A stretch of DNA of 64,000 nt from the NCBI GenBank assembly GCA_950054155.1, contig CATLOT010000007.1, positions 1 to 64,000 of the forward strand, read 5' to 3'. Position numbers and translations under genes: made by a program. The stretch is from an uncultured Bacteriovoracaceae bacterium. GTDB lineage: Bacteria; Bdellovibrionota; Bacteriovoracia; Bacteriovoracales; Bacteriovoracaceae. This document shows positions 9,583 to 12,736 of the stretch, piece by piece. Below the pieces are notes generated by a model that did not search any database, was not told the DNA's origin, and saw only the letters and a program-made list of their open reading frames with translations. The first letter of the stretch is position 1, and each line of letters begins with the position of its first letter.

Positions 9583-9999
9583 ATGCTTGTTTTCCACATT
9601 CATTCCACAAATACTGGTTCAAGTGGCGAAAAGGTTATTTTTTACTTTCAGGAAATTGTTGTTGGCAACTCACCTCAATCTCACATCAGAATAACGAGTT
9701 TAGAGAGAGACCAAGTCGCTATAAAAATTCATCATCATGACACCGGGATTTTAATAGAGAGTATTGAAAACTACCCTTTCTTTCTTAATGGTAAAAAGAT
9801 CATTGGAACAAAGGTTTTAAAAATCAATGACATTATCACTATTGATGAATCCTCTCTCCAATTAACGGAAGCGAACTTTGCTCTTTCCAATAAAACGATT
9901 GATCTTGAAGGAACATACGATACCTTTTATACAAACCATCAAGAGCACGAAACAGTAATGACGGCACTTGAGCGAGAGCTCATTCTATCAGATGACTAA
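9583..9999 (+). CDS. FHA-domain-like protein
   Basis: This 138-residue protein reads like one forkhead-associated (FHA) beta-sandwich: an early turn G33-NS--SHIRI, then R42, a GILIE strand (about 55-59) and FFLNGKKI-GTKVLKINDIITI (about 66-88). FHA domains bind phosphothreonine peptides. The canonical glycine-arginine and serine-histidine positions are only loosely kept, so phosphopeptide binding is uncertain. The C-terminal 40 residues are acidic. It follows recG by 12 bases with an AAGG ribosome site and precedes the hydrolase gene by eight bases, so the three are probably one operon. No partner kinase is in the window. Confidence 0.55.
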   Translation: MLVFHIHSTNTGSSGEKVIFYFQEIVVGNSPQSHIRITSLERDQVAIKIHHHDTGILIESIENYPFFLNGKKIIGTKVLKINDIITIDESSLQLTEANFALSNKTIDLEGTYDTFYTNHQEHETVMTALERELILSDD

Positions 10000-10007
10000 G
10001 GATTGAA

Positions 10008-10901
10008 ATGTTCACAGGATTTAAAGAGTTAGAACTTACTGGCCCAGATGGTTTACAACTTAACATTGGTCATAACCTTGATTCAGACCATCGTGATCCC
10101 TCTCTCCCTGTGCTCATTTTTAACTATGGATTAGTTTGTAATATTGCCCATTGGACTTACCAGATTCCCTACTTTCATGATCTCGGCTATAAAATCGTTT
10201 ATCACGACTATCGCTTCCACTATAAAAGCAGTTCTTCAGAATCTATTGATGATTTAACTTTTAAAAATATTGCGACCGACATGAATTTCCTCTTAAATGA
10301 GATTGGCGTCAGTCAAGGTGTCCACTTTGGTCACTCTATGGGAGTAAATACAACCCTTGAATTTGCCCGCCAATACCCTGAACAAGTTACTGGCATGATC
10401 CTCATCTCGGGAACGGTACTACCGCCACAAGATGTTCTCTTTGATACCAACTGGATGGATATCTTGCAGCCCATGCTTGAAACTCTTCTCGAGAAATATC
10501 CCAAACTCTACGGCAGTATTTGGAAGACAGGTCACCTCAATCCTCTCGCCACTCACCTCGTCCACAAAGGTGGCTTTAATACCAAAAAGGTTCCTAAAGA
10601 CTTTGTCGAATACTACCTAAAGAAGATTGGAGAGCTTGACCCCCATGTATTCTTTCAGCTTTTAAAAGAGATGAAGAATCACGATATTGTCTCCTCTCTT
10701 GAGCATATCCAGACACCAGCTCTCATTATGGGAGGAGATAAGGATCAGGTTATCCCCAACTTCCTTCAAAATATTCTGAGAGATAATCTTCCGAACTCTC
10801 GCCTCTACATTATTAAAGATGGTAGCCATGTGCCCCAGGCGGACTTTCCTGAAAGTGTGAATGAAAGGTGCGAAGTCTTTATTGAAACTACGAGATCGTA
10901 A
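10008..10901 (+). CDS. Alpha/beta-hydrolase fold protein
   Basis: The 297-residue protein has the nucleophile elbow GHSMG (108-112, Ser110), a probable acid in GGDKDQVIP (Asp246 or Asp244) and a catalytic His274 in GSHVPQ. These are in the right order for an esterase, lipase or haloperoxidase-type hydrolase. The oxyanion strand FNYGLV lies near 38-43. No signal peptide is present, so it is cytoplasmic. Substrate is unknown. A good AGGAT ribosome site precedes the ATG. It ends the greA-recG-FHA run. Its 3' end overlaps the convergent RelA-like gene by 14 bases, with no terminator between them. Confidence 0.85.
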   Translation: MFTGFKELELTGPDGLQLNIGHNLDSDHRDPSLPVLIFNYGLVCNIAHWTYQIPYFHDLGYKIVYHDYRFHYKSSSSESIDDLTFKNIATDMNFLLNEIGVSQGVHFGHSMGVNTTLEFARQYPEQVTGMILISGTVLPPQDVLFDTNWMDILQPMLETLLEKYPKLYGSIWKTGHLNPLATHLVHKGGFNTKKVPKDFVEYYLKKIGELDPHVFFQLLKEMKNHDIVSSLEHIQTPALIMGGDKDQVIPNFLQNILRDNLPNSRLYIIKDGSHVPQADFPESVNERCEVFIETTRS

Positions 10902-12135
10902 GGCCTTTATACTCAGCAAGTGGCCCAAAAACTCTTTTCATTGCGGTGAGAACTTGCTGTTTCTTATATTCAGCATGAGAGGCTTCTCCCTCAGAGTTAA
11001 TTTGATGAGATTCCTCATCTACAATTTGAACTTCATAGGGATAAAAGAAACGAACGTCACGAGCGATGTGACTATAGTCCATCGCTAAAATTTTCTTAGC
11101 GATCTCTTCTTCTTTTTGATCTTTTGCAGATTTTCTCAAATCAATAAATTCTTGAAGAAAAGGATTCTTATATTTAATGAGTTGTCGGCAAGTGAACTGA
11201 ATCGCCTGATAACCACTAAGGCTATGAGAGTTTCTCTCATCTCCATTAGCGCCCGGTCGGCACTCGCGAATCTCTCTTTCAATAGCCTCTGAAAACTTCT
11301 CTTCGTTAAGATTATGTCTTAAGGCATATTTAATGAGATTGGCGTGGCGATTTTTAAATTCATTCATATCCACTAAGCTATTCGTAGAACGGCTGGGTTT
11401 AATATTGTGAGGGATAACAATATAGTTCTCGATAAGAAACTTAATCGTTCTAATAGAGTCAAATCGTGACTTCGTCACAATTCTTACTCCCACTCTATCA
11501 AATAATTCTTCAGCAACATTTTCTGCTTTATGAAGAAGCTTAATAATTACGGAGTCGCGCGTTTTCTTTGATTTCGTTTCAAACTCTACAAGTGAGATTC
11601 CGTTGGCCTTCATTTCCTTTTTCTTTTTAGCAAAGTAAAGGTCCTCACCATCACGAAATAAGTACTTATAAAAGCGGTCAAAGATTTGCGTTTGAATTTC
11701 AGAAAAATAACTTGAACGAAGATCTTTATCTACATGGAGAATAGTGTGCATCACCTTCAATACAATTTCGGCCCACAGCTTATCTTCACGAGTAGCATCT
11801 TGTTTATTACCAGTGGCCATAAAGAAGAGGTCACTAATATCTGTAATCATAAAAATACTATTTGGAATTTTAAGATCTAGTCCCTCACCACTGCCTTCTT
11901 TTAAGAAATAGCGGCGAATAAATTGAAGGGCCTCTTGAAAGTTCCCAAAGAGCTCAGCCCTTGCAACGGGATCATTGGCATCTAGTCCATAACCTACAAG
12001 GAAACTTTCAACCATCTCCTCATTAAGCATTTGGCTGATAAAAAACTTAGAGTCGAGTGCTGATTTACCACCAATGACAACGTCAAAGGACTCCCAATCA
12101 AAGAGGTATTTTGATAAATAGCTTGGTCTTTCCAT
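10888..12135 (-). CDS. Divergent RelA/SpoT-synthetase-fold protein, function unknown
   Basis: The 415-residue protein has a non-homologous N-terminal half (1-180). Its C-terminal half matches the RelA/SpoT (p)ppGpp-synthetase plan: a Lys/Arg-rich helix with SVIIKLLHKAE (195-205), FDRVGVRIV (212-220) whose Asp213 matches the metal-binding Asp, and SGYQAI (307-312) whose GYQ matches the guanine-stacking Tyr. PYEVQI (366-371) follows, with Glu368 at the catalytic Glu position, then S-EGEASHAEYK (381-391), which matches the H--AE-G-A-AH--YK block. Differences from true synthetases are EVQIVD in place of EVQIRT, loss of the His after GYQS, and an insertion between 245 and 305. No HD hydrolase domain is seen. 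It may be a nucleotidyl or pyrophosphoryl transferase with a changed substrate, or a pseudoenzyme. It is divergent from pgpA. I vaguely recall a related uncharacterised family from Myxococcota but could not check it. Confidence 0.65.
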   Translation of the reverse strand: MERPSYLSKYLFDWESFDVVIGGKSALDSKFFISQMLNEEMVESFLVGYGLDANDPVARAELFGNFQEALQFIRRYFLKEGSGEGLDLKIPNSIFMITDISDLFFMATGNKQDATREDKLWAEIVLKVMHTILHVDKDLRSSYFSEIQTQIFDRFYKYLFRDGEDLYFAKKKKEMKANGISLVEFETKSKKTRDSVIIKLLHKAENVAEELFDRVGVRIVTKSRFDSIRTIKFLIENYIVIPHNIKPSRSTNSLVDMNEFKNRHANLIKYALRHNLNEEKFSEAIEREIRECRPGANGDERNSHSLSGYQAIQFTCRQLIKYKNPFLQEFIDLRKSAKDQKEEEIAKKILAMDYSHIARDVRFFYPYEVQIVDEESHQINSEGEASHAEYKKQQVLTAMKRVFGPLAEYKGLTIS

Positions 12136-12232: not shown

Positions 12233-12736
12233 ATGAAAGAGGAAAACGCACCAAGTCTTACGCATCCAGAAGTTGTCTTTGTCTCTTTCTTTGGAGCAGG
12301 CTTTCTGCCGAAAGCGCCTGGCACCTGGGGCTCTCTCGCTATCTGCCCCGTCCTCTTTGGGCTCTCTCAAGCCGGTGCCCCCTACTTCTTCTTCATTCCG
12401 TTTCTGATTATGGCAACCATCATCAGTTGCTTCATTGCACAAATTGCTCAGGAGAAATATAAAGTTCATGACCCCTCTTGGATTGTTATCGATGAAGTCT
12501 TAGGCATGTGGACAGCTTGGATATTCACTCAGGCCGTAGGGGGAAAGCCTGTCATCAGTTTAATTTTTGTTTTTGGAGTTTTCCGTTTCTTTGATATCAT
12601 TAAGTTCTGGCCAGCCACTTATTTCGATAAGGAAATCTCTCACGGTGCGGGAACAATTATCGATGACATCATCAGTGGAATCTACGCAGGCCTCGTCTAC
12701 TTGGGGGCTCACAGCCTTTTTCCAAATTTTTTATAA
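12233..12736 (+). CDS. pgpA: Phosphatidylglycerophosphatase A (PgpA)
   Basis: The 167-residue protein carries PgpA family motifs: FFGAGFLPKAPGTWGS near residues 18-33, VIDEVLGMWTA near 84-94, and the acidic GTIIDDIISG near 140-149. Three or four membrane helices lie between them. PgpA removes phosphate from phosphatidylglycerophosphate to give phosphatidylglycerol at the inner membrane. The ATG has only a short AGGAC site four bases upstream and a TATAGC box, so the leader is probably very short. It is transcribed divergently from the RelA-like gene. No terminator is seen before the recA promoter region. Confidence 0.9.
   Translation: MKEENAPSLTHPEVVFVSFFGAGFLPKAPGTWGSLAICPVLFGLSQAGAPYFFFIPFLIMATIISCFIAQIAQEKYKVHDPSWIVIDEVLGMWTAWIFTQAVGGKPVISLIFVFGVFRFFDIIKFWPATYFDKEISHGAGTIIDDIISGIYAGLVYLGAHSLFPNFL

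Follow-up and report, generated by a model that had tools for sequence, protein, structure and literature searches.

The stretch of DNA analyzed here is a window of 64,000 nucleotides on a contig from an uncultured Bacteriovoracaceae bacterium. On its minus strand, at 10888..12135, it carries a gene for a RelA/SpoT-synthetase-like protein of 415 amino acids, identified from its open reading frame and profile matches as a TIGR04562/TIGR04552 protein. The frame had been proposed in an earlier note made from the sequence alone; it is real, its coordinates are exact, and all residues named there are present (D213, G308-Y309-Q310, E368, EVQIVD at 368-373, and EGEASHAEYK at 382-391). With hmmscan, the protein matched NCBIfam model TIGR04562 at 444.9 bits (cut-off 140, E 2e-133, positions 1-356 of 356) and TIGR04552 at 425.1 bits (cut-off 125, E 2e-127, positions 1-352 of 352). 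It is a member of TIGR04562; both models were matched over their full length and far over the cut-off, and no difference from the catalogued family was found. Comparison with the closest relative gave a dN of 0.136 and a dS of about 4 (NG86), indicating strong purifying selection on the gene. Given the full-length NCBIfam matches, the hundreds of orthologues, and a dN of ~0.14 against a saturated dS, both the frame and its residues lie far above chance.

The gene has syntenic neighbors on both sides, which were named within the 64-kb window by recognition of their translations. A convergent alpha/beta-hydrolase gene (10008..10901, plus strand) overlaps it by 14 bp at the 3' ends, and a divergent pgpA-like gene (12233..12736, plus strand) is followed by recA, recX, and alaS, a row that is syntenic across the order. 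In 80 relatives of the order, the gene was found in an almost fixed arrangement, with greA-recG-(FHA)-hydrolase on one side and pgpA-recA-recX-alaS on the other. A small FHA-domain-like protein is encoded between recG and the hydrolase gene (9583-9999 of the window); it was much less conserved than its neighbors, with 27-58% identity or no detectable counterpart.

TIGR04562 and TIGR04552 are already catalogued by NCBI, under model names without function. In a literature search, TIGR04562 was not mentioned and TIGR04552 appeared only as an entry in a mutation table (PMC9888234). The Pfam model PF04607 (RelA_SpoT) scored 24.8 bits with the 415-residue protein, below its gathering cut-off of 27 (E 2.9e-5), and matched 27 of 30 orthologues at E<=1, the best at 1.1e-8. 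Pfam found no HD_4 domain in the protein, which therefore does not have the HD domain N-terminal to the synthetase that defines long RSH enzymes; the only HD_4 domain in the source genome lies in its separate long Rel.

An AlphaFold2 model built on 64 orthologues reached a mean pLDDT of 82 and a pTM of 0.66. When residues 122-393 of this model were compared with solved structures by VIA-align, they matched Bacillus subtilis Rel with a Z of 11.8 (4.6 A over 151 residues), RelQ with pppGpp with a Z of 11.5 (3.0 A over 151 residues), and CapRel with a Z of 8.0. The next fold was that of DNA polymerase lambda (Z 7.2), which is a nucleotidyltransferase as well. The top 50 Foldseek hits were RSH synthetases throughout, but they were weak (E 2e-3, with a poor TM over the whole model). 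The model thus supports a RelA/SpoT synthetase fold for residues 122-393, as the earlier note had proposed, and not a placement outside the nucleotidyltransferases. The sequence link to solved RSH enzymes was weak (hmmsearch E 0.068), and membership of the fold rests on structure and motifs together. Without manual intervention, the family profile placed the closing motif on E323-K346 of RelSeq and on the Rel found in the phylum itself, so that the reading of EGEASHAEYK as the final motif of the RSH family held, with E368...K391 aligned by profile methods. When HHalign was run with the family against a single Rel or a Rel profile, the closing motif alone was aligned confidently and the full path was a forced alignment.

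The family shares with RelQ/RelP and with the synthetase domain of Rel/RelA the fold, the donor-site residues, and the motifs D-x2-G-x-R, E-x-Q, and G...H-x2-Y-K. It differs from them in having KxxKxxxSxxxK instead of RxKxxxSxxxK, an insertion of ~50 residues ahead of the G-loop Tyr, mostly Gln or Lys for the syn3 His, a replaced syn4 Arg, and an N-terminal half of its own, without HD, TGS, or ACT domains.

Three segments on the minus strand make up the putative donor site. KxxKxxxSxxxK (residues 188-199, 11539..11574) aligns with the ATP-phosphate-binding motif of RSH enzymes, RxKxxxSxxxK; D213-x2-G216-x-R218 (syn2, 11482..11499) would provide the Mg2+-binding Asp and the adenine-contacting Arg; and E368-V-Q370-I-V-D...G383...H387-x2-Y390-K391 (syn4/syn5, 10963..11034) holds the catalytic Glu and the closing motif. 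In the structure of FaRel2 with APCPP, the ATP site is formed by R64, K66, S70, K74, R77, D90, G93, R95, E145, and Q147 (PMC11782079). By motif spacing, these correspond to K188, K191, S195, K199, H202, D213, G216, R218, E368, and Q370 of the present protein. Nine of the ten positions map to residues that were invariant in 30 phylum-spanning and 64 closer orthologues, the exception being H202 (R77 in FaRel2); the first donor Arg (R64) is a Lys, K188, with an offset of one residue. The probability that nine of ten positions fall by chance on the 33 invariant columns, given that mapping, is ~4e-10, a value that is supportive and not independent because the mapping drew on the motifs. D213 and E368 were invariant in both alignments, and the alignment of these two residues proposed earlier therefore holds across orthologues. 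By computation, then, the ATP/Mg2+ half of the active site is intact. Loss of activity, which had been offered as one of two explanations for the altered motifs, is not supported by a site that is invariant across a phylum, and inactivity of the protein appears unlikely from its sequence; the other explanation, a different substrate, stands as plausible in view of the altered acceptor side.

That side carries an insertion that the whole family shares, about 50 residues long (253-301; 11233..11379, minus strand); it appears in the alignment and is modeled as two helices ahead of the G-loop Tyr. The distance from D213 to Y309 is 96 residues, and ranged from 86 to 102 across 30 diverse members; the corresponding distance in RelSeq, D264 to Y308, is 44. 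The insertion described earlier is accordingly present, with a length of ~50 and not ~60 residues. A second insertion of ~30 residues, at about 323-360 (11056..11169, minus strand), was found by alignment in some classes only and is absent from Bdellovibrionia, including Bdellovibrio, whose orthologue has 365 residues. Between the two lies the acceptor (G-loop/syn3) region, aligned as N302...Y309-x3-Q313...R317 (11185..11232, minus strand). N302 is invariant and position 309 is Tyr in 25, Phe in four, and His in one of 30 sequences; G308 and Q310 are not conserved, so that of the GYQ proposed as a family-matching motif only the Tyr remains. The His of GYQSLH is indeed replaced here, by Q313. 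This is no trait of the family: position 313 is Gln, Lys, or His family-wide, and in the 64 Bacteriovoracales orthologues it is Gln in 43 and His in 21, which gives the latter an [AS]xH at syn3. With a third of the close orthologues retaining the His, its loss becomes a weaker argument for an altered substrate. The syn4 Arg occurs in no sequence of either alignment (30 diverse, 64 closer) and is replaced by Val, Met, Thr, or Leu. Positions 313 and 372 covary among the 64 orthologues, His occurring with Thr in 19 of 21 and Gln with Val or Met in 40 of 43. This may represent a single event in one clade; it is also what two facing residues of an acceptor pocket would be expected to show.

In a comparison that included Apk, guanosine-type synthetases carried the signatures SxH (syn3), IR (syn4), and AVR (syn2), adenosine-type enzymes carried GxN, YH, and RYT, and motif swaps did not convert one specificity into the other (PMC12226406). 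The present protein has AxQ, IV, and GVR at syn3, syn4, and syn2, which is neither set, and on these signatures it would be assigned to neither the (p)ppGpp nor the (p)ppApp synthetases. Since the swaps failed, the signatures are poor predictors and the substrate is not readable from them; a different acceptor is a plausible suggestion from the lack of either known signature. What computation does establish is that the acceptor side has been rebuilt, by the helical insertion and by the changed syn3 and syn4 positions.

The N-terminal half (residues 1-169; 11629..12135, minus strand) is all-helical in the predicted model. W121, H130, H134, and Q150 are invariant in the alignments and D138 is present in 29 of 30 members, so that an HxxxHxxxD motif runs along one helix. 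The half is acidic (18 Lys and Arg against 28 Asp and Glu here), and Asp plus Glu exceeded Lys plus Arg in all members checked. When residues 1-169 were modeled alone (pLDDT 76), no solved relative was found (Foldseek best E 3.4, VIA best Z 3.4), although this is no proof of a new fold, and no sequence relative was found beyond the TIGR04562/TIGR04552 family. The earlier statement that the first 180 residues match nothing is correct as regards other domains and solved folds; these residues are included in the TIGR models and are in that sense catalogued. An HD hydrolase domain was rejected by Pfam, and matches to DUF6272/SiaB at residues 49-124 (E 0.004-0.005) were attributed to chance, as Pfam finds them in one of 30 members. 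A metal-binding or regulatory role for this half is a guess.

Family matches were found in 318 of 369 Bdellovibrionota genomes and in 219 of the 235 near-complete ones, almost always as a single copy. The nearest named relatives are in Bacteriovoracaceae/Halobacteriovoraceae, which points to Bacteriovoracales as the order of the window. None was found in 14 control genomes from other phyla, and plasmids and viral contigs held no genuine copy. One apparent phage copy, with 28% identity, was rejected: the 274-kb 'Microcystis phage MaAM05' (MW495066.1, 115534-132619) looks like a bacterial chromosome labelled as phage, as its TIGR04552-family-like gene sits among glyS, secD, secF, acpS, and mtgA. 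A long Rel of ~730 amino acids was present in all 38 genomes tested, including six without the TIGR04562 gene, and the protein is therefore an addition to the normal stringent-response enzyme. The gene was absent from several reduced-genome lineages of 1.2-2.0 Mb (phylum families f15-f18 and small f10 genomes), which kept Rel where tested. Separate candidates for ordinary small alarmone synthetases, with PF04607 above cut-off, were seen in two relatives (G138:C1:3625858-3626172 and G128:C46:5491-5856) and are absent from most genomes tested.

Outside the order, where neighbors were named from the impression of their sequences and not from domain searches, the surroundings of the gene change. 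In Bdellovibrionia it is usually flanked, across small gaps, by a lipoprotein gene and a gene for a PlsC-like acyltransferase (L176-L181, L195), and the gene that follows it in other classes is FAD-oxidoreductase-like. The PlsC-like neighbor in Bdellovibrionia and pgpA in Bacteriovoracia are both phospholipid genes, perhaps by chance. In one lineage (L183, G361), the orthologue is flanked by a RluB-like pseudouridine-synthase gene and a RimO-like gene, in a translation-related row whose gene ends overlap. No common operon partner was found across classes, nor any operon partner within the order of the window, and the gene context accordingly names no pathway. Neither an adjacent nor a fused antitoxin was found across the 80 loci or at loci of other classes, and PADLOC and PHROGs gave no match. 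Without a common partner and with purifying selection and no PADLOC or PHROGs match, the gene is best regarded as a vertically inherited housekeeping gene and not as a toxin-antitoxin or defense gene.

Among enzymes that signal stress through nucleotides, the RSH family is the classic example. The reading we favor, and consider probable though far from settled, is that the family is a chromosomal, vertically inherited ATP-dependent 3'-pyrophosphokinase with a RelA/SpoT-synthetase fold, serving housekeeping signalling beside the ordinary Rel and not acting as a toxin; the activity is predicted from sequence and modeled structure. ATP would donate its beta-gamma pyrophosphate, and the 3'-OH of an acceptor whose base stacks on Y309 would receive it. 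The acceptor would most likely be a free nucleotide or a related small molecule other than, or additional to, GDP/GTP, and the N-terminal helical domain, with W121, H130, H134, Q150, and D138, might sense a cue and gate the activity. As the ATP half is unchanged and the half that chooses the acceptor has been rebuilt, the enzyme probably makes a new signal nucleotide. To our knowledge, new acceptors such as those yielding (p)ppApp or modified tRNA have so far come chiefly from toxins, from toxin-antitoxin modules, and from exported enzymes. A bolder version, which we hold to be distinctly unlikely, sees a second near-universal synthetase of Bdellovibrionota with an acceptor outside GXP, AXP, and tRNA CCA, whose product, a new alarmone, would control part of the predatory cycle, with the HxxxHxxxD domain as sensor. 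That a predator phylum has kept an RSH-type synthetase beside Rel points to a core route of signalling, overlooked because the family is filed only under a number, and this known numbered family now has a strong mechanistic lead.

The alternatives differ mainly in the acceptor. The protein could be an ordinary small alarmone synthetase that makes (p)ppGpp or pGpp from GDP, GTP, or GMP, its insertions only tuning regulation: Y309 and N302 are kept, GVR at syn2 also occurs in M. tuberculosis Rel, and the syn3 of 21 of the 64 close orthologues is RSH-like. We nevertheless find this unlikely, as the syn4 Arg is never present, a basic residue by the G-loop (K304-like) is not conserved, and the G-loop region has been rebuilt by the 50-residue insertion. 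An RNA 3'-end pyrophosphokinase acting on tRNA CCA, like FaRel2 and CapRel, here for translation control and not as a toxin, would agree with the donor site and fold common to both enzymes and with the RluB-like and RimO-like neighbors in one lineage. The positive patch on the acceptor side of FaRel2 is reduced (PMC11782079), and conserved basic residues are likewise few on that side here. However, the acidic N-terminal half contrasts with the basic tRNA anchor of FaRel2 and the gene is retained throughout with no antitoxin beside it, which makes this reading decidedly doubtful.

Similarly improbable is a pseudo-synthetase, that is, a non-catalytic ATP-binding regulator. The ATP-binding residues are constant while acceptor residues vary, as such a regulator would have it, but D213 and E368, which are needed for metal binding and catalysis beyond ATP binding, are invariant, and pseudo-enzymes usually lose metal or catalytic residues. 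With toxSAS enzymes (FaRel2, CapRel) and Apk/Tas1, the family shares the fold, the donor site, and the lack of a full guanosine signature; in contrast to them, it is a core gene without an antitoxin or immunity partner, a fused pseudo-zinc-finger domain, or the GxN/YH/RYT adenosine signature. A toxSAS-type toxin or anti-phage effector is hardly credible despite the CapRel-like fold, and the proposed relationship to toxic synthetases falls with it, in view of the fixed housekeeping synteny over an order, the missing partner gene, and the lack of plasmid, viral-contig, PADLOC, or PHROGs matches.

In a published evolution experiment, Bdellovibrio sp. NC01 was passaged 40 times on one prey strain. 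According to the mutation data of that report, a one-nucleotide deletion arose in DOE51_RS08710, a 'TIGR04552 family protein', and exceeded 75% in line B, one line of six; its authors attribute frameshifts to the single-nucleotide indels in coding genes (PMC9888234). The family name and the single copy in Bdellovibrio genomes point to DOE51_RS08710 as the orthologue, and on these data a frameshift at such frequency implies that cells growing as predators can lose the gene. The deletion may possibly have hitch-hiked. As far as one line of six, a weak basis, can indicate, the reported frequency hints at selection against the gene under unvarying laboratory conditions, as would suit a signal that restrains growth.
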